From a virus, in the IMG/VR virus record IMGVR_UViG_3300009545_000067, positions 1 through 21,582 of that record: a DNA stretch of 21,582 bases. One strand, 5' to 3'. Position 1 is the first letter of the stretch; the number at the start of each line of letters is the position of its first letter. The notes beneath the pieces were generated by a model. That model had not been told where the DNA came from. It did not search any database and saw only the letters and a program-made list of their open reading frames with translations. The translations under genes and the position numbers were made by a program. This document shows, piece after piece, positions 715 through 21,076 of the stretch.

Positions 715-1703
715 CAGTAGCTCTCGACGTCGTTGAGCAGCGTGATGCCCAGCATGTGGCCGGCGCCTGCGTCGAAAGCGGCGCGCCAGTTGGTGGTGGC
801 GTTGATGCCGCCAGGGCCACTGATCGGCTTCTTGGCCAGGGCCAGAAAGACGCGCGGCAGACTGAACTTCAGCACCCAGGTCGGCGCGCTGCGCAGGCTG
901 AATGCGAACTCGACAACAGCGGGCGTCTTGGCGTCGACCAGATCGTCTACCGTATGGTCCGTGCCGAAACGCAGGTCGAATGTACCGCTGAGCTGGCGCG
1001 CCCCTTCATCGGCACCATCAATCTCGCCATCCGGCCGGATGGTCGCGACAGGATCGAGGTTGTTGGTGAAGTTGATCTGCGCGCCGGTGACGTTGGCGAG
1101 CAGCACGCCGCCGATCTTGATGGACCCAGTGGCGTTGTCGAACGGCAGGTATTCGTAGGTCAGCGGCGAGGCGTCTCGAGCCGTCGCCGGCGTATCCTTG
1201 GCGTTCGACTGGGCGGTCATCGGGATGGTGAGCTGAGCACGGCCGGTGCGCGACATCGGGAAGGAAAAGCCGCCTGCCTTGGCCCCTTTCGAGGTCCGCG
1301 CCTTGGGTGTCGTCAGCTTCGGATGGACGCGCTGCACGGTGTAGGAATTGAGATCGAGACCGGAGCGCCAGGCGTGAGTAAAGGTGCCGTCCCCGTTGTC
1401 CGTCGGACCGGCAGGTTCGGTGCCGAGCGCCACCGTGAGCCAGAGGCCAACAGCGCGCGAGCACATCGGCACAACCAGATTGCCGCTCGCATCGAAGGCA
1501 CCCAGCGACGGGTCAGTATCGTCGGGCTGGCTGTTATTCCAGAGCGGATCATCCTCGAGGTCCTGGCTACCGTCGAGTTCGTCCGACTTCATCAGCGGGC
1601 GCGTGTAGACGCCGCCTGCGGTGCCATCCGGCGCCGTGCCGTAAGTAGTTTCCTTGGCGATGAGCAGAATGGCATCGGCGCCTGTCGCGCGAGGCTTGGC
1701 CAT
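714..1703 (-). CDS. Tail tube (major tail) protein
   Basis: This 329-aa protein is the likely major tail tube subunit, which stacks as rings around the tape measure protein to form the non-contractile tail. It lies between a tail-terminator-like gene and the tail chaperone pair, the position of lambda gene V. The N-terminus (MAKPRATGADAILLIAKETT) and the glycine-, threonine- and aspartate-rich, mostly beta-type composition resemble phage tail tube proteins. It is longer than lambda gpV (about 246 aa), so it may carry an extra surface domain. The start has a good ribosome binding site, AAGGAA seven nucleotides before ATG. The stop overlaps the next ATG (TGATG). There are no catalytic motifs or membrane segments. 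Confidence 0.75.
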   Translation of the reverse strand: MAKPRATGADAILLIAKETTYGTAPDGTAGGVYTRPLMKSDELDGSQDLEDDPLWNNSQPDDTDPSLGAFDASGNLVVPMCSRAVGLWLTVALGTEPAGPTDNGDGTFTHAWRSGLDLNSYTVQRVHPKLTTPKARTSKGAKAGGFSFPMSRTGRAQLTIPMTAQSNAKDTPATARDASPLTYEYLPFDNATGSIKIGGVLLANVTGAQINFTNNLDPVATIRPDGEIDGADEGARQLSGTFDLRFGTDHTVDDLVDAKTPAVVEFAFSLRSAPTWVLKFSLPRVFLALAKKPISGPGGINATTNWRAAFDAGAGHMLGITLLNDVESY

Positions 1704-1727
1704 GGCGATGTTCCTTGGTTTGCAGCC

Positions 1728-2168
1728 TCAACCGAGGCTTGAGGTTGACCAGTAGTCGAGTTCGATGGGCAGCTCGGCGCCCTTCATATCGGCGGCGCCC
1801 CAGAGCGCTTCCGGCGCATAATCGGCAGGCTGCACGCGGATATCGGTGACGAGCCCCCCGAGGCCGTCAGCCAGCGCCGCTGTCATTGCGGCGTCGGCGG
1901 CTTCGATCATCGCGTCGAGCGCGGCGTCCGGAGCGGCAGCATCATCGCCCTTGACCATCAGGATGAGGGCCGGCGTCATGGTGAATTCGTACATCGGCGG
2001 ATTGATGAAAGCTTCCGTCTGCCCACTCGTCCCGTCGATCAGGTTGGCGAAGGAGTTTCCTGCCGCGTCGAAATCGGTAAGGGGCGCGTTGCGCGTCACT
2101 GCCGTGCCGGCCAGCGACCCGAACGCCGCATGCAGCGCCACGAGGATCTGTTCGCGCTTGGTGGCCAA
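1728..2168 (-). CDS. Tail terminator-like protein (lambda gpU position)
   Basis: This 146-aa protein lies between a Z-like minor tail protein and the tail tube gene, where lambda has gene U, whose product caps the tail and joins it to the head. The N-terminal helix (TKREQILVALHAAFGSLAG) followed by a beta-rich body with the segment FINPPMYEFTMTPALILMV is typical of small terminator folds. The start is TTG (2166-2168), three nucleotides past the upstream TGA; GGAG lies about 10 nt upstream, and an ATG in the same stretch is out of frame. Function is inferred from order, length and general pattern, not from a decisive motif. Confidence 0.55.
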   Translation of the reverse strand: MATKREQILVALHAAFGSLAGTAVTRNAPLTDFDAAGNSFANLIDGTSGQTEAFINPPMYEFTMTPALILMVKGDDAAAPDAALDAMIEAADAAMTAALADGLGGLVTDIRVQPADYAPEALWGAADMKGAELPIELDYWSTSSLG

Positions 2169-2171
2169 GGC

Positions 2172-2822
2172 TCATTCACTCCATGCCGCGATGACATTGT
2201 TCAACAAATCATCCTCTGCCTTGGCGTAAGCCGACTGAGGATCGATGCGCTTCTTGAGGCGTACCTGCGGCACGAGGAAGAACATCACGATGGTCTCCGT
2301 GCTGCCTTTCTTGATCGCGGCAGCGGTGCCTTTGCGAATACCGCCACGCTTGCCGGTTCCACGTCGCACCTGGTCAACGACCAGCAGCGAGGACTTCCCC
2401 TGCCGATAGACAAAACGGAGCTTGCCGAACCGGTCTTCAGGAAAGGTCGATGGCGTCAGGCGGCTGCCGCCCGGCCCTTTCGGGCAATCGGGCGACGGGA
2501 TGGCGAGCCAGAAGCCTTTGGCGCTCTTGATGACCGTCGCCTGCTCGAAGGCCTCAATGATATGCGGAGCTTTCGAATAGACGACCGACGCAGCGCCGAG
2601 GCTGGTTTTTGGCAGCTTCGGAAACGCTTCCGCCTGCCAGGTGTTCGCCAGGCGCTGTGAGCCGAACGCGGCGGTGATTTGAGCCCGAAGCGCAGCCTTA
2701 AGCGATATGGTTGTGACGTCGATGCCGCGGCTCACCGCCGAGGCACCACGGTCCGTCTCTTCCTTCATGAACTCCGGCAGGTCGCCGAAGACAGTTGCCC
2801 GAAGCTGCAGCTTGGTTGGCAT
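2172..2822 (-). CDS. DUF6441-like minor tail protein (lambda gpZ position)
   Basis: This 216-aa basic protein resembles the DUF6441 family of prophage proteins: an N-terminal helical part with the segment GSQRLANTWQAEAFPK, a core containing SKAPHIIEAFEQ and KGFWLAIPSP, and a C-terminal FFLVPQVRLKKRID segment. Such proteins sit in head-tail or tail completion clusters. Here the gene lies between FII-like and U-like genes, matching lambda Z. I place the start at the ATG at 2820-2822, forming a TGATG overlap with the upstream stop; an upstream in-frame alternative at 2849 would overlap the FII-like gene by 28 nt. The biochemical role is not established for the family. Confidence 0.65.
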   Translation of the reverse strand: MPTKLQLRATVFGDLPEFMKEETDRGASAVSRGIDVTTISLKAALRAQITAAFGSQRLANTWQAEAFPKLPKTSLGAASVVYSKAPHIIEAFEQATVIKSAKGFWLAIPSPDCPKGPGGSRLTPSTFPEDRFGKLRFVYRQGKSSLLVVDQVRRGTGKRGGIRKGTAAAIKKGSTETIVMFFLVPQVRLKKRIDPQSAYAKAEDDLLNNVIAAWSE

Positions 2823-6071: not shown

Positions 6072-7097
6072 ATCAGTCTCCGTGTTAGCGCGCGTTTTGT
6101 CGGTTGACCCTGACGCAGCAGGCGACGCGCCGCCGGAGCTGGTCAGGGATTTCTGCAGGGCGGCAAAGGCAGCCTGCTCGGTGGCGATTTCATCGACCAG
6201 GCCGAGCGCGAGGCCCGACTGTTTCGGATCATCGTGCTGGGCGAGGAACCACTGCCCCTCAAGCTCGGCGATCGTGGCCGTAGAGAGGGCGCGGCCGGCA
6301 TTCACCACACCAGCGAAGCGGCGTCCGATCTGGTCGACGGTCGACTGCAATTTTGCACGCGCATCGTCCGAAAGCGGCTTCCAGTCGTGGCCGTCCGTCT
6401 TGCGGGCGCCATTCTGGATCGCCTCGATCTTGACGCCATGCTCGGCGAGCCAGCCGGAGGCATCGACGTGCAGGACGTAGACGCCGATGGAGCCGACATC
6501 GCTTTCGGAGGCGGCAAGGATCCTGTCAGCCGCACTGGCGAGCGCATAGGCGGCCGAGCATGCGGTGCGGACCGAGGCCCAAACGGGCTTGCCTGCGGAC
6601 TTGCCATTACCGGCAGCAATGTCGGCAGCGAGATCGAAGCAGCCATCGACAAGACCGCCGGGCGAGTTGATGCGCAGAAACAGCGCGTGAACGCGATCAT
6701 CGCCACGGGCAAGCGCAACGGCCGCGCCGATCTGAGTGTAACCGCCGTACCAACAATCGGTCCAAAAATCGTAGTAGCCATCGGGCGTCAGGACGCCGCA
6801 GATGTCGATGACGGCGACGCCATCGACGATGGCGTAACCATCCGCCCACTCGATCGTGCCAGCCCACGGAACTGAGGCCGTGGCGAGGCGTGACCGGTCA
6901 ACCTGCCGATCGGCGTCGTCATCATCGCCGGCCTCGGCGCGCGGCCGATGAGTGAGGGCCGAAAAGGCGCGCGTCAGCAAATTGCCGCCGCCGGAACGAC
7001 GCTCCTCGAACGCACGATCGATCATGGCCTCCGCGACGCTCCGTTCGAGCATCAGCACACGGCCGGGCGTCCTTAGGATAAGATCGAGATCAGGCAT
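5574..7097 (-). CDS. Head maturation protease (S49/SppA-type) with C-terminal scaffold, lambda C/Nu3-like
   Basis: This 507-aa protein combines a serine protease and a scaffold. Residues about 75-310 form an S49/ClpP-fold domain: RINSPGG (143-149), the likely nucleophile Ser181 in TACSAAYALAS, and the likely general base Lys233 in NGARKTDG after GSIGVY. This Ser/Lys dyad cleaves scaffold and portal or capsid tails inside the prohead. Residues from 343 on are a separate helical and extremely acidic part (runs of Asp and Glu), typical of scaffold. The start is the ATG at 7095-7097 with GGAA upstream, overlapping the portal stop by 8 nt; the open frame continues further upstream to 7478 but that part is a shadow of the portal gene. 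In lambda, Nu3 is likewise translated from an internal start within C. Confidence 0.85.
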   Translation of the reverse strand: MPDLDLILRTPGRVLMLERSVAEAMIDRAFEERRSGGGNLLTRAFSALTHRPRAEAGDDDDADRQVDRSRLATASVPWAGTIEWADGYAIVDGVAVIDICGVLTPDGYYDFWTDCWYGGYTQIGAAVALARGDDRVHALFLRINSPGGLVDGCFDLAADIAAGNGKSAGKPVWASVRTACSAAYALASAADRILAASESDVGSIGVYVLHVDASGWLAEHGVKIEAIQNGARKTDGHDWKPLSDDARAKLQSTVDQIGRRFAGVVNAGRALSTATIAELEGQWFLAQHDDPKQSGLALGLVDEIATEQAAFAALQKSLTSSGGASPAASGSTDKTRANTETDMPLAEQIAALRAKAANGDTAALAELKSLGVSAKAEDATDDDAGDDDETDGDGKQKPANDDDDDEEDGDGEPEAKATGADAGFKLLNAKEAKGRTDLANRLARKVADGKLTYGEAKDMLASAPKSRPLADAMTNRDRNPGNDAGAGLARGAGLGAAVDRLVAKKRA

Positions 7098-8736
7098 CGC
7101 TGGTTCCAGTTCTTCCCTGTTCACCGCCCGGCTGCTGCTGGGCATCGGTCGGGGCGACGATCTTGGTATCGGTGACGACGCCCGGAATGCCGGCGGCTTC
7201 CATGGCGGCACGCTCGCGGGCGAGCTGGGCGATGATCTCTTCCCAATCCTGACCCTGCTCGGCCGCTTCGCGTTCGAGCGTCGAAATGCGCCCATCAATC
7301 CGCAGAGAGGAAGCCTGCGCTTCCTTGACCGGGTCGATGAAGCCGCGCGCCGGACCGATCCAGTCGGCGTTGAGCCAGGCGGCCGGCGCATCATAAAAGT
7401 CGGCGCAACCCTTCGGCACCTCGACCGTGCCGGCGTCGAGCGCATCCTCGAGCCAGGCCGCGAAGACCGGAACAGCAAAACCCCAGATCAGGATGGCGCG
7501 GAGGCGCATTACCCCGCGCCAGACCTCGTTGAGCGCGGCGCGGGCCGACGAATAGTTGGTGTTCGACCAATCCATCGACAGCTGCTCGTAGGAAATGCCG
7601 AGCGAGGCGGCGAACGCCTGCAAAAACGACGTCTGAAACGCCGGATAGCCCGCTGTCTGTCGCGGTGTCGTGTTCAGGTCGAGCCGGTCGGACGGAAACA
7701 GCGTCAGGAAGCGCGCATCGTCCATCACATTGCGCTTGCCGTAGAACTCGGCGCGCGACGTGTTGAATTCGCCCCAGTCGACGTCGCTGGGGGCGTCGCT
7801 GCCGAGGTGGTCGGCGGCGTATTCGGCGCCCATCTGGGTGTAAATCGCGCCGACGATGGTGGCGTTGATCGCCGCCGTGCGCACTTCGGATTCTGAGTAG
7901 CGGGATAGCATGCGAAGCTTGGTCAGCGACGCGACGAAGTCGGAAATGCCACGTGACTGGCCTGGCCGATGCTTGTCGTAGACATGAACGACCTTCGGCC
8001 GCTCCCAGGGCCCTATCGCATCCCAGCGGGGGATGTAATCCCACTGAAAGGACGACGTTTTCATGCTGAAAACGTCGGCGGGATGACCGCGGCGGATGTG
8101 ATAGCCGATCGGCGCGTTGTTCTGGTCTTTTTCGACCCCGCCCCGCAGCGTGTCGCTGTCCGGCATGCCCATCGGATTGCTCAGGCGGTCGGGATCGATG
8201 ATCTGGACGGCAGTGCGATAGTTCCAGCCGGGTCGATCGATCCAGCGAAGCACGCCAAGGCCCTCGCCAATGCCGACAAACTCGCGGGTAATGAGCCCGG
8301 CGAGCCCGGCAAACGGCAACTGCCGCTCGGCATCGCAACGGAAGATCGGGTCTTCGGCCCAATCGAACCATTTTGACTGGATTTGACGGCCAAGCGCGTG
8401 CGCCGCGGCAGGCGAAATCCCCAAACCGACCGGATCGGGCTTCGCGTTGAGGCGCAGCGAGCCGCCGACCAGCATGTCGACCTTGCGATCGACGCCGGAT
8501 TTGGCCCAGCCCTCGTTGCGGATGACGTCACGGATGCGTGCGATCGAAACCGGACGGTCACGGAGCCACTCGGCATCGGCGGACTGGATGGGCGGCATCC
8601 AGCCCTGCAGGGACGGATGGCCGAGATCAGCCGCGTTGTAGCTGGTGCGGCGGATTCCGCCTTCGGCAACGGGCCGTGCGGTACGGCCGGTCGCGTCGCC
8701 GGCGGCAACACGCACGCGAGGCTTCAAAGCGCTCAA
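7090..8736 (-). CDS. Portal protein (lambda gpB family)
   Basis: This 548-aa protein is a lambda-type portal, the dodecameric channel at one capsid vertex through which DNA is packaged and ejected. Family features include VIRNEGWAKSGVDRKVDMLV near residue 70-90, the RPGQSRGIS segment (257-265), and the highly typical WSNTNYSSARAAL stretch (390-402) before the channel/crown region. The C-terminal 80 residues are helical and Gln/Glu-rich, as in clipped portal tails. The start is TTG at 8734-8736, overlapping the W gene stop as TTGA, with GGGAG six nucleotides upstream; no better ATG exists. The gene sits between W and the protease, as in lambda. Confidence 0.9.
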   Translation of the reverse strand: MSALKPRVRVAAGDATGRTARPVAEGGIRRTSYNAADLGHPSLQGWMPPIQSADAEWLRDRPVSIARIRDVIRNEGWAKSGVDRKVDMLVGGSLRLNAKPDPVGLGISPAAAHALGRQIQSKWFDWAEDPIFRCDAERQLPFAGLAGLITREFVGIGEGLGVLRWIDRPGWNYRTAVQIIDPDRLSNPMGMPDSDTLRGGVEKDQNNAPIGYHIRRGHPADVFSMKTSSFQWDYIPRWDAIGPWERPKVVHVYDKHRPGQSRGISDFVASLTKLRMLSRYSESEVRTAAINATIVGAIYTQMGAEYAADHLGSDAPSDVDWGEFNTSRAEFYGKRNVMDDARFLTLFPSDRLDLNTTPRQTAGYPAFQTSFLQAFAASLGISYEQLSMDWSNTNYSSARAALNEVWRGVMRLRAILIWGFAVPVFAAWLEDALDAGTVEVPKGCADFYDAPAAWLNADWIGPARGFIDPVKEAQASSLRIDGRISTLEREAAEQGQDWEEIIAQLARERAAMEAAGIPGVVTDTKIVAPTDAQQQPGGEQGRTGTSDA

Positions 8737-8978
8737 ATCCGTCTCCCAAAGCCGATGCGGATCGGCCCGTTGCCGGTCGGCAGGCCGGTAAGCCTCGACC
8801 GCAACACCTCAAGCCGGGCGATCTCGGCGTCAATGTCCGCGAGGGTCGCCATTTCCTTTTGTACCGACCCGCTCTGGTACTGAGTCCGCACGACCGCACC
8901 GCCGGTCAGGCGCGCCATTTTGGCCGAGCGCAGGCTATCGATCGCCGAGTTGATCTCGTCGAGGGTCATGTCGGCCAT
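8733..8978 (-). CDS. Head-tail joining protein gpW-like
   Basis: This 81-aa protein resembles lambda gpW (68 aa): an N-terminal helix (MTLDEINSAIDSLRSAKMAR), a beta-hairpin (GGAVVRTQYQSGSVQKEMAT), a second helix (LADIDAEIARLEVLRSRL) and a short basic tail ending GFGRRI. gpW plugs the portal after DNA packaging and is needed before gpFII and the tail can attach. The start is ATG at 8976-8978 with AGGA five nucleotides upstream; an upstream in-frame extension to 9080 reads into the intergenic region and has no such site. It precedes the portal gene with a 4-nt overlap. It is separated from the large terminase gene by an opposite-strand insertion of about 1.6 kb. Confidence 0.8.
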   Translation of the reverse strand: MADMTLDEINSAIDSLRSAKMARLTGGAVVRTQYQSGSVQKEMATLADIDAEIARLEVLRSRLTGLPTGNGPIRIGFGRRI

Positions 8979-9044
8979 CACAGTCCTGCATCGTTGTCGG
9001 TTGAACAATTGGGCGGGGCAAGACACAGCGCGACGCCAGACATT

Positions 9045-9077
9045 CCATGCCAATACACTTGCGTTGTCTTGGCATGG
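9045..9077. promoter_or_regulatory. 9-bp perfect inverted repeat upstream of the plus-strand ATPase gene
   Basis: CCATGCCAA (9045-9053) and TTGGCATGG (9069-9077) are perfect inverted arms with a 15-nt spacer, ending 38 nt before the GTG start. This places the repeat where a promoter or leader of the plus-strand gene should be. It could be an operator for a dimeric regulator or an RNA hairpin. No convincing -35/-10 pair could be assigned by eye. Confidence 0.5.
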
Positions 9078-9115
9078 CACTAAGAGTTGAGTGAGCTATT
9101 TCAGAGGGGCGTTCG

Positions 9116-10624
9116 GTGGACACCATTCGACAAGCACTTCAGTCACTCGACCTAGGTAAATCGGTGGCAGAGTTCGACGAAGCGCTGGAACGCTATTTCG
9201 TTGAGACCAACGCGTTTCGCGAACTCGTGCACGATCGTTGCGACATCATTTCTGGCGACAAGGGAACAGGAAAGACCGCCATCTACCGAATACTCGAGAA
9301 GACCTATGCGGCGCTGCCGGAACTAAAGAAGATTGAGGTTATTCCGGCATTTAACCCGTCAGGGAGCCCGATCTTTCAACTTCTCACGAATCACGAGGTG
9401 CAGACCGAGGCAGAGTACAACCACCTTTGGAAGGCTTACCTATCCTCATTCGCCGGAAATTGGATCCTACGCCTCTATGAAGGCAGCTTCACCCCGCAGA
9501 TGTCTACACTTGACAATGTGCTACGCGGACTCGAACTGCGCACTGAGCTAGATGCCCCCCGAAGCGTCTTCTCGAAGGTTCTGAGCAAGATTGGCTCGAT
9601 GTTCAACTGGCGGTCAGCGGAGATGCAATTCACCATTTCCGAAAGTGGAATGCCAGTACTAACCCCTCGTGTCGAGTTTTCAGGAGACGAGGCCGCTAAA
9701 ACCAAGACGCCGGGTCCTGTACCTGCGGACGCCATCTTCAGATTGTTGAACGCTTGTCTTGTTGAGGCCAACATCACAGTTTGGATCGCCATCGATCGAC
9801 TTGACGAGGCATTTTCAGGATACCCGGGGATCGAGATACCCGCTCTGCGAGCGTTGCTGCGAACTTATCTAGACTTAACAGAATTCAGCAATATCAAGCT
9901 TAAGTTATTTGTTCGGAGAGACTTGTTTAGCAGAATTACTGCAGGCGGTTTCGTTAATTTGACCCACATAAACGCCCGTAAGCTTGATATAATCTGGCGG
10001 GAAGACGACCTGCTCAATCTACTCTGCAGACGAATAAGGGAGAACCCTCAGTTCTGCGCGGCGCTGAAGATAGTCGGAGCGACGGATAAAGAGATATTCG
10101 ACGTGATGTTTCCAGAGCAAGTCGACTTTGGAAAACGAAAGCCCGTAACGTGGACTTGGATGATGCGACGAATTCGCGATGGCAACGACGTGAAGCCTCC
10201 ACGCAATCTTCTCGATCTCATCCTGCTATCGCAACGGGCACAACTCAAACGTGAGGACATCAGGAACCGAATGATCGACGCACGTCCGATACTAGAGCCA
10301 GACGCGCTTCGGGAGGGGTTGTCCGACCTCAGCGTCATGAGGGTTAATGACACCCTTTTTGCCGAGGCCGGGGAATCCGCCGTTGCTGCCATTGGCAAAT
10401 TCCGAGGAGGCAAAGCCGAACACAACATTCAGTCGATTGCCTCACTCTTCGGAACTAGCGTCGAGCAGGCACGAGCCGATGCCACCCCGTTGGTCGCAAT
10501 AGGGTTCCTAGAGGTAATCAAGGATTCCTATAAGGTGCCCAGTCTCTTTCGCGAGGGAATGAAAATCACCCAGGGTAAGGCCTTCGAAGGCGGTTTAGTG
10601 TCCGGAGAAGACGACGACGAATAA
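9116..10624 (+). CDS. P-loop ATPase, Sll1717-like family; opposite-strand cargo gene (moron)
   Basis: This 502-aa protein has a clear Walker A motif GDKGTGKTA (residues 47-55), a Walker B-like strand VWIAIDRLDEAF (222-233, acidic residues D227, D230, E231), and a likely sensor/arginine-finger region KLFVRRDLFSRI (263-274). The C-terminal third is helical and ends in an acidic tail (GEDDDE). The layout resembles the Sll1717-type P-loop ATPases, whose function is unknown. The start is GTG with AGAGGGG six nucleotides upstream. It is the only large plus-strand gene, sits between large terminase and W, and ends 12 nt from the convergent terminase stop. Its composition is foreign: 22 G+C of 60 bases at 9901-9960, against 42 of 60 in the portal at 8401-8460. 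No membrane segments or nuclease motifs are visible. A host-benefit or phage-exclusion role is inference. Confidence 0.85.
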   Translation: MDTIRQALQSLDLGKSVAEFDEALERYFVETNAFRELVHDRCDIISGDKGTGKTAIYRILEKTYAALPELKKIEVIPAFNPSGSPIFQLLTNHEVQTEAEYNHLWKAYLSSFAGNWILRLYEGSFTPQMSTLDNVLRGLELRTELDAPRSVFSKVLSKIGSMFNWRSAEMQFTISESGMPVLTPRVEFSGDEAAKTKTPGPVPADAIFRLLNACLVEANITVWIAIDRLDEAFSGYPGIEIPALRALLRTYLDLTEFSNIKLKLFVRRDLFSRITAGGFVNLTHINARKLDIIWREDDLLNLLCRRIRENPQFCAALKIVGATDKEIFDVMFPEQVDFGKRKPVTWTWMMRRIRDGNDVKPPRNLLDLILLSQRAQLKREDIRNRMIDARPILEPDALREGLSDLSVMRVNDTLFAEAGESAVAAIGKFRGGKAEHNIQSIASLFGTSVEQARADATPLVAIGFLEVIKDSYKVPSLFREGMKITQGKAFEGGLVSGEDDDE

Positions 10625-10636
10625 CGCCGGAACGAA

Positions 10637-12757
10637 CTACCTGTTCAGACGCGCCAGAGCGTCGAGCCCATCACTCAATTTTTTCGTTCGTACCGGCTTG
10701 GCCGGCTCCGCATCTACCTCGTCTGCGAGAGTTTCGGCGGCGGGCAAAGCCGTCGTGACAGCGCCGGACGGTGCGCCAAAAATATCTGTCTGGATGTCGC
10801 GCGTCATTTCCGACAGTTCGCGGGCACGATCTTCCCACTGCTTCTCGGTCCACACCCAAAGGTTGGTGTAATACGTCAGCGCCCAACCGTAGATGTTGCA
10901 GTCGAGCCAGTGGTTCGGCCCCTTGCGCTGCCAGACGCGCTTGATCTCACCCTTCTCTTCGACGGTCGCCACGAACTCGGAGACGAGGTGGCGGAAATAC
11001 TCCTCCTCGGTATCGCCGGGGAACTGCTGGTAGCCGGTGGGCAGGCCGCCGTCGCCCTCCTTGGGCAGCCGCGCGAGGAAGTTCATCAGCGCGGCCTTGA
11101 GGCCGTAGGTACCGACCAGCCATACCTTCATGCCATGGCGGCGCGCCTTACCGGCCGAGGTGCCGTGCTTCCTGACCTCGGGCGTTTCAGCGCGGCCGAT
11201 CGGCAGTTTGCTCCAACCCTCGATACCCTTGAAGGCAAGCGCGTTGTGGCGGCGCTTCACCCAGCTGTAGACCGCCTCAGCGTTGTAGCCGCTGTCGACG
11301 CCGATCAGGTCGGGCGCGATGCGGATGCCGCAGAAGCTGATCCCCCGATCCGCTATGAGATCGAGCTTGGGCCACGCCCCTTCGAAGGCGACGTCGGTCG
11401 ATCCGGCGAGGAAGCCGTGATCGATATGCCAGGTGCGTTTCCCCGGCCCCCAACCGAGGATCGCCCAATAGAGACCGTCCGCCTGCACGTCGGCCGTCAG
11501 CGTGGTGTAGAGCACCCCGGCGGGCATCGCACCCCGCGACCAATCACTGTCTTTGCGCGCGGCCAGCAACTCCCAACCTGGCCCCTCGCCCTTTGGTTCG
11601 TAGGCGCGGCCGAGGTCGCTGTTCTGGAACGGCTGCAGCTTCTCCGGGTCATCGCCAGCGTCTTTTTCGCGCTGCGCCAGGTTGTCCCAGCGCTCGAAGA
11701 TATTGAACTCGCCGGTGATGGCGTAGCTCTTGATGAAGCGGCCGGTATGGCGGTGTCGCCAGGCGTCGATATCGCCCCTCGCGATCGTCTTTGGCGGGAC
11801 CTCGCCATCGGCGTCGGGAGCGGTCGGTATCCAGCAGGCACCCGACGCGACCGAAATCATGTTGGCCTTGTCGCCCTCGTAGTGCACCATGCCACAGCTG
11901 GGGCAGATGAGGCGGCAACGGAACGGCGCGGCGTCGTTCTTCTGGATATCTTCCCAGACGAAATCCGTGAGATCGCCGCAGCGCTTGCACGCCATGTAGT
12001 AGCGGCGCTTATCGCCGAGCTCGTAGTCGGCGTCGATGTCAGCGCCCTTCAGCTTCGGCGAGGATACGTCGAGCACCTTGGCGAGGCCGAAGACACGGAA
12101 CGTCTTAAGGCGCGCGTCGCTCAAATCCTTCGGATCGCCTTCGCCATCGGCGTTGTCGGTCCAGGCGGAACGATCGTCGCGCACCATGTAGCGTATCGAA
12201 TGCTGGCGCAGCGTGGCCGCCGAGTTGGCGCCGGACAGGAGCAGGAAGCCACCGGCGAAACGGACGCGCTTGGTTGTCGAGCCTTCGCCCGACCGCGACC
12301 GCTTCGGGGCCACGGTGCCACCACGCGCCGGCGACAATACCGGGGTGGCGTTGATCGTCGGCTCTAGCTTCTCCTGGTACCAGTCGATCGCCGCCTGCAC
12401 GGTTGGGCCGACATACATCGTCGGACCCGGTGCACGGTGCATGATGAAGCCCAGCCAGTTTTCGCCAACCGCCGAACCACCCGACTGCGACGGCTTGATG
12501 ATGACGACGCGCTCGCACGGATCATCCGGCGAGAGTGCATCCATCGGCTCGATCAGATACGGCCCGACGTCGTTGCGCCAGGGGCCAGGCACAGCGCCAA
12601 TCTCCGGCACGATGCGGAAGGCCTCAGCCCAGTTCGAGACCTTTTCCTGCGGATCGGGCCGAATGCCGTTGGCAGCCCCACGATAGACGACGCGGCCATT
12701 GCCGCGGATGCGACGATCGCTGTCAGTTCGGCTCGCCAGCGTCGAGGTCGTCGCCAT
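10637..12757 (-). CDS. Terminase large subunit (lambda gpA family)
   Basis: This 706-aa protein is the packaging ATPase and nuclease. Counting from the chosen start, Walker A is KPSQSGGS (88-95) and the Walker B region is YMVRDDRSAW (D194, D195), followed by the family-typical DGEGDPKDL. A zinc-ribbon-like set of cysteines (about 257, 260, 285, 288) separates ATPase and nuclease. Likely nuclease metal ligands are D423 (LTADVQADG), D488 (IGVDSGYN) and D619 (NHWLDC). It cuts concatemers at cos-type ends and pumps DNA through the portal. The start is uncertain: three consecutive ATGs at 12763-12755 overlap the small subunit gene by about 35 nt, and I take the third, with TGGA 5 nt upstream. No start codon exists nearer the small subunit stop. 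Confidence 0.9.
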   Translation of the reverse strand: MATTSTLASRTDSDRRIRGNGRVVYRGAANGIRPDPQEKVSNWAEAFRIVPEIGAVPGPWRNDVGPYLIEPMDALSPDDPCERVVIIKPSQSGGSAVGENWLGFIMHRAPGPTMYVGPTVQAAIDWYQEKLEPTINATPVLSPARGGTVAPKRSRSGEGSTTKRVRFAGGFLLLSGANSAATLRQHSIRYMVRDDRSAWTDNADGEGDPKDLSDARLKTFRVFGLAKVLDVSSPKLKGADIDADYELGDKRRYYMACKRCGDLTDFVWEDIQKNDAAPFRCRLICPSCGMVHYEGDKANMISVASGACWIPTAPDADGEVPPKTIARGDIDAWRHRHTGRFIKSYAITGEFNIFERWDNLAQREKDAGDDPEKLQPFQNSDLGRAYEPKGEGPGWELLAARKDSDWSRGAMPAGVLYTTLTADVQADGLYWAILGWGPGKRTWHIDHGFLAGSTDVAFEGAWPKLDLIADRGISFCGIRIAPDLIGVDSGYNAEAVYSWVKRRHNALAFKGIEGWSKLPIGRAETPEVRKHGTSAGKARRHGMKVWLVGTYGLKAALMNFLARLPKEGDGGLPTGYQQFPGDTEEEYFRHLVSEFVATVEEKGEIKRVWQRKGPNHWLDCNIYGWALTYYTNLWVWTEKQWEDRARELSEMTRDIQTDIFGAPSGAVTTALPAAETLADEVDAEPAKPVRTKKLSDGLDALARLNR

Positions 12758-13394
12758 CATCATCCAGGTGGTCAAGCTCGCCGGCGAGCTGGTCAAGCAT
12801 GCGCCGCATTTCGTCGGTCAGGATCGCGCGGACGGCGCGGGCATCAGGTGCCACCGTGACCTTTTCCGCGACGGTGGCGGGGAAGGCGAGGAGGCGGTCC
12901 CGCACGCGGCGGAAGGCGGTCATGGTGCGTCGTTCGACGTCGTCCTTGTCGGCAAGACGGTCGAGGCGCTCGTCGAGGTCGAGGCGGGCATTCTCGGCCT
13001 GGTAGGCTTCACGCTCGGCACGGGACCGGTGGTAGTTGGCTTTGCCCTGAGGCGCGCTGCGATCAGTCGCCTCGCCAGCGTCATCCTCGTCATCGCCGAG
13101 ATCGAGGTGATCGGCGACCGGGGCCGGGGCTCGGTTGTTGCGCAGATCCTGCGCCGGGTCCGTCTCCTCAGCGATCGCCCGGTTGAGTGCGACGATGTTT
13201 ACCAGCACCGTGCCGCGCGGGCCGGGCTTCGTCGACAACCGGCCGGCCGCCACCAGCCTGGTCACCCGCTTATGGATCGCCTGCTTCGAAATCGGCGGTT
13301 GCTGGCGCTGCGCCGCCTCGGACAGCGAGACCCAGACGAGGCTCTCCGTCAACTGGCCGTCAACCGCCGCGAGCACGTCCGTCAACCCCGTCAA
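12723..13394 (-). CDS. Terminase small subunit-like DNA-binding protein (Nu1-like)
   Basis: This 223-aa protein lies immediately before the large terminase, overlapping it, as expected for the cos-recognition subunit. Residues about 20-65 read as a winged helix-turn-helix (VSLSEAAQRQQPPISKQAIH, then a wing with PGPRGTVLVN). A middle acidic linker is followed by a long charged helix (YQAENARLDLDERLDRLADK) and a segment RRVRDRLLAFPATVAEKV that recurs in small terminase proteins. The C-terminus is very acidic, probably contacting the large subunit. The start is a TTG at 13392-13394; a second in-frame TTG and a GTG follow within 20 nt in GGTTGACGG repeats, so the exact start is not settled. Confidence 0.75.
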   Translation of the reverse strand: MTGLTDVLAAVDGQLTESLVWVSLSEAAQRQQPPISKQAIHKRVTRLVAAGRLSTKPGPRGTVLVNIVALNRAIAEETDPAQDLRNNRAPAPVADHLDLGDDEDDAGEATDRSAPQGKANYHRSRAEREAYQAENARLDLDERLDRLADKDDVERRTMTAFRRVRDRLLAFPATVAEKVTVAPDARAVRAILTDEMRRMLDQLAGELDHLDDDGDDLDAGEPN

Positions 13395-13707
13395 CCCTGT
13401 GCGAAAATGGCCAAACTACAAAGCACATGCGCTTTGACGTCCCGCATACGTTTTGAGGGCTGGGAAGGACCCGGTGACCCATGGCGGGGTTGTGCAACGT
13501 GCAAATTTGCAGGTTGGCGTCGGGCAGCACGCGCTCAGACCATTGGCCCAAATGCGAAACGCGCCACCGTTGCCGGCAGCGCGTTCGTGATTCCCAATTC
13601 GTTGTCCCAATATCTGTCAAATATTTTCCCCCGCTGCAAGGGGCTTGTTCGATACCTCCCGATCAGCAAGATTGGTGTTGCGTCCAACTCGTCATCAGCA
13701 GGAGAAA
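13395..13707. promoter_or_regulatory. Gene-poor region upstream of the terminase operon (probable late promoter region)
   Basis: No convincing gene lies here. The stretch holds an AT-rich island (about 13590-13630) and, on the minus strand, a perfect TTGACA (13620-13615) without a clear -10 box at 16-18 nt. A 22-bp near-palindrome (13495-13516) lies about 100 nt before the small terminase start. Repeated GTCAAC units occur at 13380-13398. Because all late genes read leftwards from here, the late promoter is probably within it. The exact promoter is not identified. Confidence 0.4.
13495..13516. promoter_or_regulatory. 22-bp near-perfect palindrome, candidate late-gene operator
   Basis: CAACG TGCAAA / TTTGCA G GTTG pairs in 10 of 11 positions around its centre, with the perfect core TGCAAATTTGCA at 13500-13511. 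It lies upstream of the late operon and shares its core with the palindrome at 4759-4786. A dimeric activator or repressor site is the simplest reading. Confidence 0.5.
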
Positions 13708-13782
13708 ATGAAGCAGGCATTCGCCAGTTTAGCGATCTCGGCGATTATCATGTGTTGCGGCGCCACGCGGCGTGACATCTAA
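13708..13782 (+). CDS. Possible 24-aa hydrophobic small protein
   Basis: ATG at 13708 follows AGGAG at 13700-13704 with a 3-nt spacer, a strong ribosome binding site but close. The predicted peptide has a lysine near the start, then a hydrophobic stretch (AFASLAISAIIMCCGA) and a short basic end (TRRDI). It could be a small membrane peptide or a signal-like leader. It is on the plus strand in an otherwise gene-poor region, and its stop overlaps the next possible ORF by 11 nt. Small ORFs of this size arise by chance, so this is tentative. Confidence 0.25.
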   Translation: MKQAFASLAISAIIMCCGATRRDI

Positions 13783-13918
13783 CGACACGACAGAAGCCGT
13801 CATCAAATACCTAGTAGCTCACCCCGATCAGAGGGCACTGGCCGCCGCGAGTACGGCCGAAGTAGCTCTGAAAGCAGCTTATCCCTGTAGCGTGCTGCGT
13901 CTCCAGTCTGCGCGCTAG
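13772..13918 (+). CDS. Possible 48-aa small protein
   Basis: A GTG-started plus-strand frame overlaps the 24-aa ORF and encodes a 48-aa product with two helix-like segments (TTEAVIKYLVAHPDQRALAA and AEVALKAAYPCSVLRLQSAR), vaguely like a helix-turn-helix. Its TAG stop shares the palindromic bases CTAG (13915-13918) with the TAG of the convergent minus-strand gene. The ribosome binding site is weak and would need coupling to the preceding ORF. I do not recognise a family. Confidence 0.3.
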   Translation: MTSNDTTEAVIKYLVAHPDQRALAAASTAEVALKAAYPCSVLRLQSAR

Positions 13919-14520
13919 GCGGTCATGTGGATCACTACCGCCGGCATGTCCCATGGACACTCTGGAACAGCCGGACCGGTCGCCACGTATTTGGTCAGTC
14001 GCGAGTTCACTGCGACGCGCAGATCGCTAAGCGCCGCATGCCATGCCATCCATTGCAACATCAGCATGTCGAGTTCGGCAGGATCGTTGCCGATCCATTC
14101 CCATTCGAAGCCGATGATATGTGCGCCCTTGCGTTGATCTCGATATCGTTTGATCGCCGCGCCGGTGCCGTTGTTGCGCCGCACAAGCTCATAGCGCCCG
14201 CTACCTTCCTTGCCCCACTCAGGGCGCGTGCCGACCTGTCCATAGTGGACAACCAACGCCGCGCTCTCGGCCGTGCGCTTGTCCCGGCTCATCGCACCGA
14301 TGACGTCCGCAATGACGATTGCATCATCGTGCGTCCACTTACCGTCCGAACCGCCGCCGCCACCATCGACGCGCATCCCAGTCGGAATGTCTCGCGACCG
14401 ACCGCTGGCTTCGCCACGAAGCGTGTTGCCCAAGCCCTGCTTTTCCAAGGCCCAGTTCACCAGCCACTCGATATCCCGAGCCTCTCGCATCGCTGCCGGC
14501 CGCTGTTTCAAATCTGTCAT
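13915..14520 (-). CDS. Hypothetical phage protein between replication and late modules
   Basis: This 201-aa protein is not recognised. It begins with a helical segment (MREARDIEWLVNWALEKQGL), has a glycine-rich turn (GGGGG near residue 53-57), and a central block with ALVVHYGQVGTRPEW, GRYELVRRNNGTGAAIKRYR and IGFEWEWIGNDPAELDM. It looks soluble, mixed alpha/beta, with no membrane segment or catalytic motif I can name. The start ATG has GAGG five nucleotides upstream. It is the last gene before the late promoter region, a place where lambdoid phages often encode a late regulator, so a regulatory role is possible but unsupported by sequence. Confidence 0.6.
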   Translation of the reverse strand: MTDLKQRPAAMREARDIEWLVNWALEKQGLGNTLRGEASGRSRDIPTGMRVDGGGGGSDGKWTHDDAIVIADVIGAMSRDKRTAESAALVVHYGQVGTRPEWGKEGSGRYELVRRNNGTGAAIKRYRDQRKGAHIIGFEWEWIGNDPAELDMLMLQWMAWHAALSDLRVAVNSRLTKYVATGPAVPECPWDMPAVVIHMTA

Positions 14521-18454: not shown

Positions 18455-21076
18455 CTATTTCCCATCTTCGACGCCCATCAGGTCGAACAGGGTCGGCATC
18501 GAGACCTCCTGTTCGGTCGCGACGCAGTATTTGACGCCATCGGCGAAATAGCCGGGGTTGAGTTCGGCAGCCCGGCCGCGACGGCCGGCCTTCATCGCGC
18601 GCACCGGCACCGTGAACAGCCCGCCGAACGGATCGAAGATCAGATCGCCCTTGTTGGAAAACCGCTCGATCAGCCGGTCGACGATGTCGAACTGCAGCGG
18701 GCAGACGTGCTTTTCGAGGTTCTGCTGCGCCTGGTCGCCGTTGAGCGTCAGCATGCGGTTGACGTCATGCCAGAGATCGTCGCGGTTGCTGCCCGGCGCG
18801 AGCGCCATGAAGGTCTTCGGCAGCGCACCACGCTCGGCGAGCGCATCGCCAACGGCGACATGCGTCTTGAAATCGTAGACTTGCCGCATTGTCTGCTCGG
18901 TGAAGAGCCGGCTGAGCACCTCGGGCCGCAGCTGCGCCAGCTCGTCGACGCTGAGGTGACGATCGCCTGACGATCGCCAGAACGAATGCGCGTCGACCTG
19001 CCAGCGGGCCAACGAGTATTCGGATGGTAGTTTCTCGACGCGATCATCGGCATAGGATTTGCCGCGATCGGTCGGAAGCTTTCGCATAAGCAGCACGTAT
19101 TCAGGGCTGCCGACGCCCATCTTCGATCCGTCCTTGAGCATTTCGGTGTAGCCGAGGCGGTAGGTCTGGTTGTTCTCCCTGACCACGTCCGTCTGCACCT
19201 GGATCATCCCCATGAAGGCGAAGCCGTGCGACTGGTAGTGAAATAGCGTCTTGGCGTGGAACGGGTTGACGGTCGGCGTCCCCATGCCGGTGACAGAGCC
19301 GAAGAGGATGCGGTCCTTGACGTGGATGCAGGCGAGACGGCCGGGCTTGAGGATCCTGAAGAGTTCGGGCGTCAGGTAGTCCATCTGGGCGAAGAAGTGC
19401 TCATCGCCATCGGTGTGCCCGAAATCGTTGTAGCTCGGCGTGTACTCGTAGTGGTTCGAGAACGGGATCGAGGTGACGATCTCGTCGATGCTGTCGCTAT
19501 CGATGAGCTTGGCTTCCTCGACGCAATCGTTATTGGCGACCAGCCACCCTGCCCCGCTCGCCTCGACGCGAGCCGTACCGATCGAGCGGGTCAAAACGTC
19601 CGACATGCTCAGCGTGGCCAGCCCGTGTTCGCGGATAATCTCTGCCATGGTCTCCACCATCTGGTTGTGCTGCGCCCATTTGCCCTGCAGCGTGCGCAAA
19701 ACCTCGCGCTCGGTCTCGGCATGGATGATGTGGATTTCGACCGGAAAGCCCTGCAGGAACCGCTGGATGCGATGCACCGCCTGGATGAAGTCGTTGAACT
19801 TGAAGCCGATGCCGAGAAAGATCGCCTTGTGGCAATGACGCTGGAAGTTGCAGCCGCTGCCGGCGATCACCGGCTTGGCAGCGAGCAGCCGGAATTTTCC
19901 GTCTGAGAAATCGACGATCGCCTGCTCGCGCGCCTCAAGGTCCTGCGAGCCGTAGACTGAAACGACGCCTGGCACAGCCCGCTCGATCGCCCGCCGCTCA
20001 TCCTCGAGATCGTGCCAGAGCAGAAAGTGATCGGCCGGCGCCGCGTCGAGGATAGCCGTCATTGCCTCGATGCGGGCGGGCAGTGTGTCGCGTTTTTCCT
20101 TGGCGGCATCCTTGAGGCCGATCGCGGCATCGCGCATCAGCTTCATCTGTCCGTCGCGATCCTCGCCGCCATCGGCGAGGTCCGCTTGCACCTCGTGATA
20201 AATCACGTTGAGCGGCGGCAGCTCGTAGCCTTCGTCGGAATAGCCGAGGTCTGACGGCCGCTGCAGGAAGATCGACCAGCTATTGAGCCAGAGCCAGAAT
20301 TCGCGCTCTTTGTGGGGATAGAGCGTGAGGTTGTTCGCCTGCGTGGAATCCCGTTGGAAAAACCGCGTCAGGGCCTGCCCGGTATCCATAATGCCGAGGA
20401 AGCCGGCATAGTGGATCAATTCCTTGAAGCGGTTCGGTGAGGGCGTAGCCGTGGCGACGAAGCGGTACCGCACGGTGACGAACAGGGAGAGGAACGTCTG
20501 ATAGGTCTTCGACCCGAACGACCGGAGCACGCTCGCCTCGTCGAGGCTCACCGCGCCGAAGAGGTTCGGGTCGAGTTTGCCATCACGGACGGTCTCATAG
20601 TTGGTGATGTGCAGATGGCCCGTACGCCGGTCGATCTCATCGGTGGCGCGAATGAAGGTGATCGACGGAATGCGAGCAGGATGGCCGGCCTGCCATGCGC
20701 GTAGCTCTTCTCGCTGCGCATCCGTGATATTGGGATGCTCACCCGTTGCGAGGGTATGGACGTCCTTCTTGAACTCTTGCCGGACGCCGAGCGGCGCGAT
20801 CACCAGCGGCGCACCACCACCGAGCTGTTGCAGCAGCCGCAGGATTTCGATCTGCATAAAACTCTTGCCGAGCCCGAAGGCAGCGAAGATGGCGCGCTGC
20901 CCGCCCTTCACGGCCCATAAAACGATATCGCGCTGATGCGGCTTCAGCAGCGGATTCACCTGGTCGGCAGTGACGAATGGAAACCCGTCCTGCGCAGCCA
21001 TACGCACCTTGCGCTCAAGGAACGTCCGGTAGCTTGCCGAAGGCGCGATCGCCGGTCGGGCGAAGGGCGCGTTCAT
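18455..21076 (-). CDS. Fusion of SF2 helicase and beta-class DNA methyltransferase
   Basis: This 873-aa protein has two parts. Residues 40-460 form an SF2 (SNF2-like) helicase: motif I GLGKS (68-72), motif II DEAS (179-182), motif III TATP (209-212), and motif VI QAVHRIQR (432-439). Residues about 500-850 form an amino-methyltransferase: the catalytic motif IV region TSIPFSNHYEY (535-545) comes before the SAM-binding DPFGG (815-819), the beta-class order. The usual second residue of the S/D-P-P-Y/F motif is Ile here (S-I-P-F). It may translocate on DNA and methylate it to protect phage DNA from host restriction. No nuclease motif is seen, so it is not a complete restriction enzyme. The gene overlaps the upstream one as ATGA. 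Confidence 0.88.
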   Translation of the reverse strand: MNAPFARPAIAPSASYRTFLERKVRMAAQDGFPFVTADQVNPLLKPHQRDIVLWAVKGGQRAIFAAFGLGKSFMQIEILRLLQQLGGGAPLVIAPLGVRQEFKKDVHTLATGEHPNITDAQREELRAWQAGHPARIPSITFIRATDEIDRRTGHLHITNYETVRDGKLDPNLFGAVSLDEASVLRSFGSKTYQTFLSLFVTVRYRFVATATPSPNRFKELIHYAGFLGIMDTGQALTRFFQRDSTQANNLTLYPHKEREFWLWLNSWSIFLQRPSDLGYSDEGYELPPLNVIYHEVQADLADGGEDRDGQMKLMRDAAIGLKDAAKEKRDTLPARIEAMTAILDAAPADHFLLWHDLEDERRAIERAVPGVVSVYGSQDLEAREQAIVDFSDGKFRLLAAKPVIAGSGCNFQRHCHKAIFLGIGFKFNDFIQAVHRIQRFLQGFPVEIHIIHAETEREVLRTLQGKWAQHNQMVETMAEIIREHGLATLSMSDVLTRSIGTARVEASGAGWLVANNDCVEEAKLIDSDSIDEIVTSIPFSNHYEYTPSYNDFGHTDGDEHFFAQMDYLTPELFRILKPGRLACIHVKDRILFGSVTGMGTPTVNPFHAKTLFHYQSHGFAFMGMIQVQTDVVRENNQTYRLGYTEMLKDGSKMGVGSPEYVLLMRKLPTDRGKSYADDRVEKLPSEYSLARWQVDAHSFWRSSGDRHLSVDELAQLRPEVLSRLFTEQTMRQVYDFKTHVAVGDALAERGALPKTFMALAPGSNRDDLWHDVNRMLTLNGDQAQQNLEKHVCPLQFDIVDRLIERFSNKGDLIFDPFGGLFTVPVRAMKAGRRGRAAELNPGYFADGVKYCVATEQEVSMPTLFDLMGVEDGK

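Follow-up and report, generated by a model that had tools for sequence, protein, structure and literature searches.

The window, that is, the whole stretch of DNA analysed, is a 21,582-base virus record whose late genes lie on the minus strand. Antisense to them, on the plus strand at 9116..10624, is a gene encoding a 502-aa P-loop ATPase of the Sll1717 family with a predicted ORC/Cdc6-STAND-like fold and C-terminal winged helix. It begins with GTG at 9116, and a purine-rich ribosome binding site, AGAGGGG, can be read from the sequence a few bases 5' of it (9103..9109, plus strand). The protein has a Walker A motif, GDKGTGKT, and a Walker B motif, WIAIDRLDEAF, in which G50, G52, K53 and D227 are kept, and alignments of close homologs showed no variation at the key residues. 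The G+C content of the gene is 0.523 over 1509 bp as against about 0.64, and when the whole window was scanned the lowest 1509-bp value outside the insert was 0.588. GC3 is 0.59, as against 0.70-0.82 in the other large genes measured. The composition of the gene is foreign, with the deviating base composition by which prophage morons are recognized. What the first-pass annotation described here, a Walker A/B ATPase of 502 aa with a GTG start and a strong ribosome binding site, is present as stated, and its G+C counts, 22/60 at 9901-9960 and 42/60 at 8401-8460, are exact.

The ATPase gene is tail-to-tail with terL (10637..12796, minus strand), which encodes a GpA-type terminase large subunit (PF05876, 200 bits; PF20454, 175 bits), and 12 nt separate the two stops. 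At the other side lies the late gene downstream of the insert, gpW (8733..8978, minus strand), whose 81-aa product starts MADMTLDEINSAID and agrees in length and start with the gpW of loci L021 and L069. A 115-aa gpW ORF in the program-made list is over-extended and was dropped in favor of the 81-aa start at 8978. The lambda-family portal protein gene follows at 7090..8736 on the minus strand (PF05136, 292 bits). The antisense placement between the large terminase and W, as proposed earlier, is borne out by these flanks.

The ends of the insert were defined, as the first-pass annotation had suggested they could be, by relatives lacking the gene. Two IMG/VR relatives, L004 and L005 (54.4 and 52.4 kb), have 91-98% nucleotide identity to the window in aligned blocks of the structural operon. 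Their similarity to the window is lost at the start codon of gpW on one side and where terL ends on the other, the alignment breaking off at 8979/8974 and 10644/10694. In 19 related records the joint is empty, with 3-11 bp from the terL stop to the gpW ATG. These records represent only about 10 lineages, since in several cases two collections contain the same prophage. Their terL is 53-68% identical, and they include prophages of four Devosia genomes and one Pelagibacterium genome. Thus the whole insert, from the gpW start codon to the terL stop codon (8979..10636), is 1658 bp in place of a few bases. Rfam and tRNA searches of the window gave no match, and no tRNA therefore accounts for the insertion. 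The gene had been read as a moron, a reading that was to fall if all relatives carried it with matching composition; it is absent from close relatives and its composition deviates. The moron reading is backed, and gains detail, by the insertion between genes that are adjacent in relatives and by the foreign composition. That there is a slot, that the ATPase gene was inserted in it and that it is cargo are close to certain.

The phage is a temperate lambda-type prophage of a Devosia-like soil bacterium. Integrase-like matches were found in near relatives (in the two closest they fall short of the family cutoff), one near relative has an S24 repressor, and further relatives sit in bacterial contigs.

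In L004 and L005 the ATPase gene is replaced by a 304-aa gene and a 151-aa gene, respectively, both antisense. Because these near-identical phages hold different antisense genes, three unrelated genes in three phages, the terL/gpW joint is a swappable slot; different genes at one site in close phages are a feature of prophage defense hotspots. Neither the 304-aa nor the 151-aa occupant matched a defense family. Among the 207 loci in which both genes were found, the terL-gpW gap is <=60 bp in 157, 60-200 bp in 5 and larger in 45. The larger gaps are partly filled by apparently structural genes in sense orientation (L009, L010, L100, L247).

Antisense occupants of the joint in more distant phages are mostly below their own locus in G+C, and they include known defense systems. 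A prophage-like contig has at its terL/gpW joint an antisense two-gene CBASS (L144 3037-5482, minus strand), whose effector is a patatin and whose cyclase is DncV-like (PDLC00757, 379 bits; PDLC00824, 557 bits). An Mrr restriction endonuclease (PF04471, 115 bits) occupies the same position in two related phages (L285 3752-4696 and L300 7294-8238, both minus strand). Other antisense occupants include a CoiA-type nuclease (L049), a DUF4238 protein (L071), a Glyoxalase_8-like protein (L064/L098) and genes of no family in L048 and L016. CBASS and Mrr are thus found at the homologous joint in distant phages, without a defense-family match in the closest ones. Sense occupants include ParDE (L281), a SocA/Panacea protein, an antitoxin (L015), a DNA methylase (L294) and DUF2026 (L040), and with these a rule of obligate antisense orientation at the joint was dropped. 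Antisense cargo is present in 3/3 phages of the window's own clade, not across the whole group. From its occupants, the terL/gpW spot appears to be a socket in which putatively protective cargo is swapped.

The ATPase matches the NCBIfam model of Sll1717, NF047389, at 144.4 bits (cutoff 75) over residues 13-472, which is near full length, and also phrog_14159 (1.7e-54). Pfam gave only weak P-loop matches below cutoff, to ORC-CDC6-like and to nSTAND3 (15.9 bits vs 27.2). No effector or sensor domain flanking the NTPase was found with Pfam or in the predicted structure. The PADLOC candidate system PDC-M28 is matched partially, through its component PDC-M28C (2e-18); the component set is incomplete, with component C alone present and the second gene absent from the insert. 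A PDB sequence search with the single protein gave no match, and profiles gave the P-loop only. The AlphaFold2 model, built from a 17-sequence alignment, has a mean pLDDT of 82.7 and a pTM of 0.81, and its secondary structure suggests a winged-helix-like end at residues ~435-473. The best PDB matches in Foldseek are Orc1/Cdc6, BrxC of BREX, the archaeal AAA+/Walker-type ATPases 2fna/2qen, RdrA of RADAR and plant NLRs, with low full-length TM-scores of about 0.3-0.4 on the query; because of these scores the match is taken as a clade-level likeness.

Of the family assignments that the first-pass annotation wanted checked, Sll1717 holds by sequence. No STAND/NACHT family match was reached by sequence, and the likeness to STAND is one of predicted fold only. 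With the Sll1717 family the ATPase shares the near full-length match over cutoff, the Walker A/B motifs and the family length; it differs from members L307 and L320 in lacking their N-terminal part, which is Nuc_deoxyrib_tr-like (just under cutoff) or ParA-like. With the ORC/Cdc6-STAND clade (BrxC, RdrA, NLRs) it shares the Foldseek matches, an AAA+ core and the predicted winged helix, but its whole-length TM-score is low and it has neither sensor repeats nor a fused effector. Literature searches found no paper on Sll1717 or PDC-M28, and the family is still, as noted before, without an assigned function.

Homologs of the ATPase are sparse, mobile, single genes. The searches gave 4 long matches among 398 genomes of the order and 2 among 385 of the class, and the cutoff of the Sll1717 model was exceeded in 21/299 Pseudomonadota genomes and 0/14 controls. 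Plasmids gave three distant matches and a tblastn search of isolated phages gave none. The homologs have no constant neighbor gene. One lies between two near-identical transposase-like ORFs, copies of an IS (L210), and another is flanked by a transposase-like ORF and core genes (L211); others follow an HK97-type terL (L207) or adjoin a tape measure gene (L209). IMG/VR has 17 more phage homologs with 29-51% identity. Among these are copies that adjoin integrases (L342, L347) or a umuC-type gene (L344), one that precedes terL and a putative terS in antisense orientation (L355), and others in sense orientation within Mu-like head or tail operons (L352, L346). Those of L349 and L350 are tail-to-tail with P2-type portal and terminase genes (gpQ/gpP). 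In P2 the defense hotspot is bounded by the replication gene on one side and the portal gene on the other (PMC9519451), and the L349/L350 position adjoins it, as judged from the portal side only. In L347 and L358 the homolog is split in two ORFs, possibly decayed copies. Both fold and genomic contexts of the Sll1717 family point to defense.

Upstream of the ATPase gene is a 13-nt inverted repeat, CCATGCCAATACA-7-TGTCTTGGCATGG, at 9045..9077; 2/1000 shuffles were as good. It has no other copy in the phage or in the inserts of the near relatives, and a phage-wide operator is ruled out by the lack of another copy in the phage. The repeat is a possible operator of the ATPase gene itself. Scans of the insert for promoters (sigma-70 and Caulobacter-type consensus) and for terminators gave nothing above shuffles, and RNA folding of the leader gave a z of -0.25. 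Since the stops of the ATPase gene and terL are so close, and no terminator consensus lies in between, late transcription should continue antisense through the ATPase gene. From this geometry it is possible, though doubtful, that late antisense transcription silences the gene.

The locus is probably best explained as a moron in a swappable antisense terL/gpW slot that would be expressed in the lysogen as an exclusion factor. A promoter of its own, lying toward gpW, would drive the ATPase gene in the lysogen. Its product would act alone to exclude other phages, as it lacks both a fused effector and a conserved partner gene. On meeting an invader, nucleotide binding or exchange in the ATPase would be switched on, and action would follow via the winged-helix DNA-binding end or via oligomer assembly; a nucleotide-switched, DNA-binding or oligomerizing ATPase is our best guess at the biochemistry. 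When the prophage is induced, the late antisense transcript over the gene would help to turn the ATPase off. A phage-exclusion function in itself appears likely.

The recurrence of defense and toxin-antitoxin genes at the joint, a sparse and mobile distribution typical of defense genes, and homologs adjoining P2-type portal genes near the P2 hotspot speak for exclusion. They speak against a lysogenic-conversion moron with a non-defense role, in regulation, DNA maintenance or stress, acting on host or prophage DNA via the ORC-like ATPase and winged helix. Such a role seems rather unlikely, with several features in its favor: the nearest fold is that of the Orc1/Cdc6 initiators with their winged helix, the ATPase has no detected effector domain, its family has no known function, the upstream palindrome suggests regulation, and SDR and glyoxalase-like genes are found at the joint in other loci. 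The stress-response alternative raised in the first-pass annotation gained no support.

It is improbable that the AT-rich ATPase gene is a selfish or neutral passenger that arrived recently at an insertion-tolerant joint and is of no use to the phage. Intercistronic joints do tolerate insertion, the turnover among the three near-identical phages is fast, and the split ORFs of L347 and L358 fit a gene without use; yet the ATPase ORF is intact with all invariant motifs, the same phage was found in a second record with 99.99% identity, and the recurrence of defense genes at the joint is hard to square with neutrality. One could also suppose that the cargo promoter interferes with terL transcription and that this antisense regulation of the late operon, not the protein, is the selected function. 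In each of the three close phages 12-15 nt separate the cargo stop from the terL stop, and since the window shows no terminator consensus in this interval, cargo transcripts would run into terL antisense. Against this, the coding sequences are intact, and most relatives have an empty joint and hence do without antisense cargo; selection for such interference is highly improbable.

Lambda bor/lom-type morons are accessory genes with their own promoter in the late region; the ATPase cargo, which would share these traits, differs from them in position and in protein. The exclusion-factor moron favored here has parallels in the P2/P4 prophage defense hotspots, in which a fixed temperate-phage site likewise holds different cargo in related phages (Rousset 2022, PMC9122126; Vassallo 2022, PMC9519451). 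Hotspot cargo consists mostly of unknown genes mixed with known defense systems (PMC9122126, PMC9519451). The P2/P4 slots are cos-proximal, by the portal or early genes, whereas the slot described here is inside a lambda-type packaging/head operon and antisense in three close phages. The noncontiguous Tha/Ith operon of S. aureus 80alpha is a case in which opposed transcription contributes to tying a prophage defense gene to the lysogenic state; its contribution is minor, and most of the effect comes from the inhibitor protein (PMC11087260). Overlapping opposite transcription is the shared feature (PMC11087260), and the tie of cargo to lysogeny is here a proposal. In Tha/Ith the defense gene runs with cI and the antisense inhibitor gene lies inside the operon; here it is the cargo that runs antisense to the late genes and, unlike in Tha/Ith, no inhibitor gene is seen.

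A second slot appears at the portal/protease joint, which is empty in the window (7090..7106). L004 and L005 have there an insert of ~410 bp, 99.3% identical between the two, with an antisense 136-aa ORF (L004 13016-13426, L005 12605-13015; minus strand) that reads as a two-helix membrane protein. Distant loci also have genes at this joint, antisense in L091/L094 and L063 and sense in L048 and L071. The gene in L091 (11494-12651, minus strand) and L094 (11465-12622, minus strand) is AT-rich, encodes 385 aa and has a putative Fic-family look. Lambda-type phages may keep swappable antisense sockets at several packaging/head joints, with orientation as a safety switch, on in the lysogen and off at induction, a generalization put forward tentatively. 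If late transcription shuts the cargo off, unrelated defense genes could be plugged in without a dedicated inhibitor. The placement makes testable a general question, whether antisense position in the late operon is a prophage's way to escape its own immunity on induction, and the uncharacterized Sll1717 ATPase family gains a testable role. A cargo slot at conserved joints (terL/gpW, plus portal/protease) can be detected automatically in many prophages, and therefore offers a direct way to new phage-exclusion genes outside defense islands.

Another segment of the window unlike both near relatives, 13642-14435, overlaps a 201-aa ORF (13915-14520, minus strand) and a dip in G+C. At 18455-21076 (minus strand) the window encodes an 873-aa protein in which a helicase (phrog_16) is fused to an adenine methyltransferase-like end. 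In L196 (IMGVR_UViG_3300010373_001372) an AT-rich gene pair lies by the integrase end (1349-2526, plus strand), the first encoding a putative SocA/Panacea protein, and this is possibly a further cargo site.
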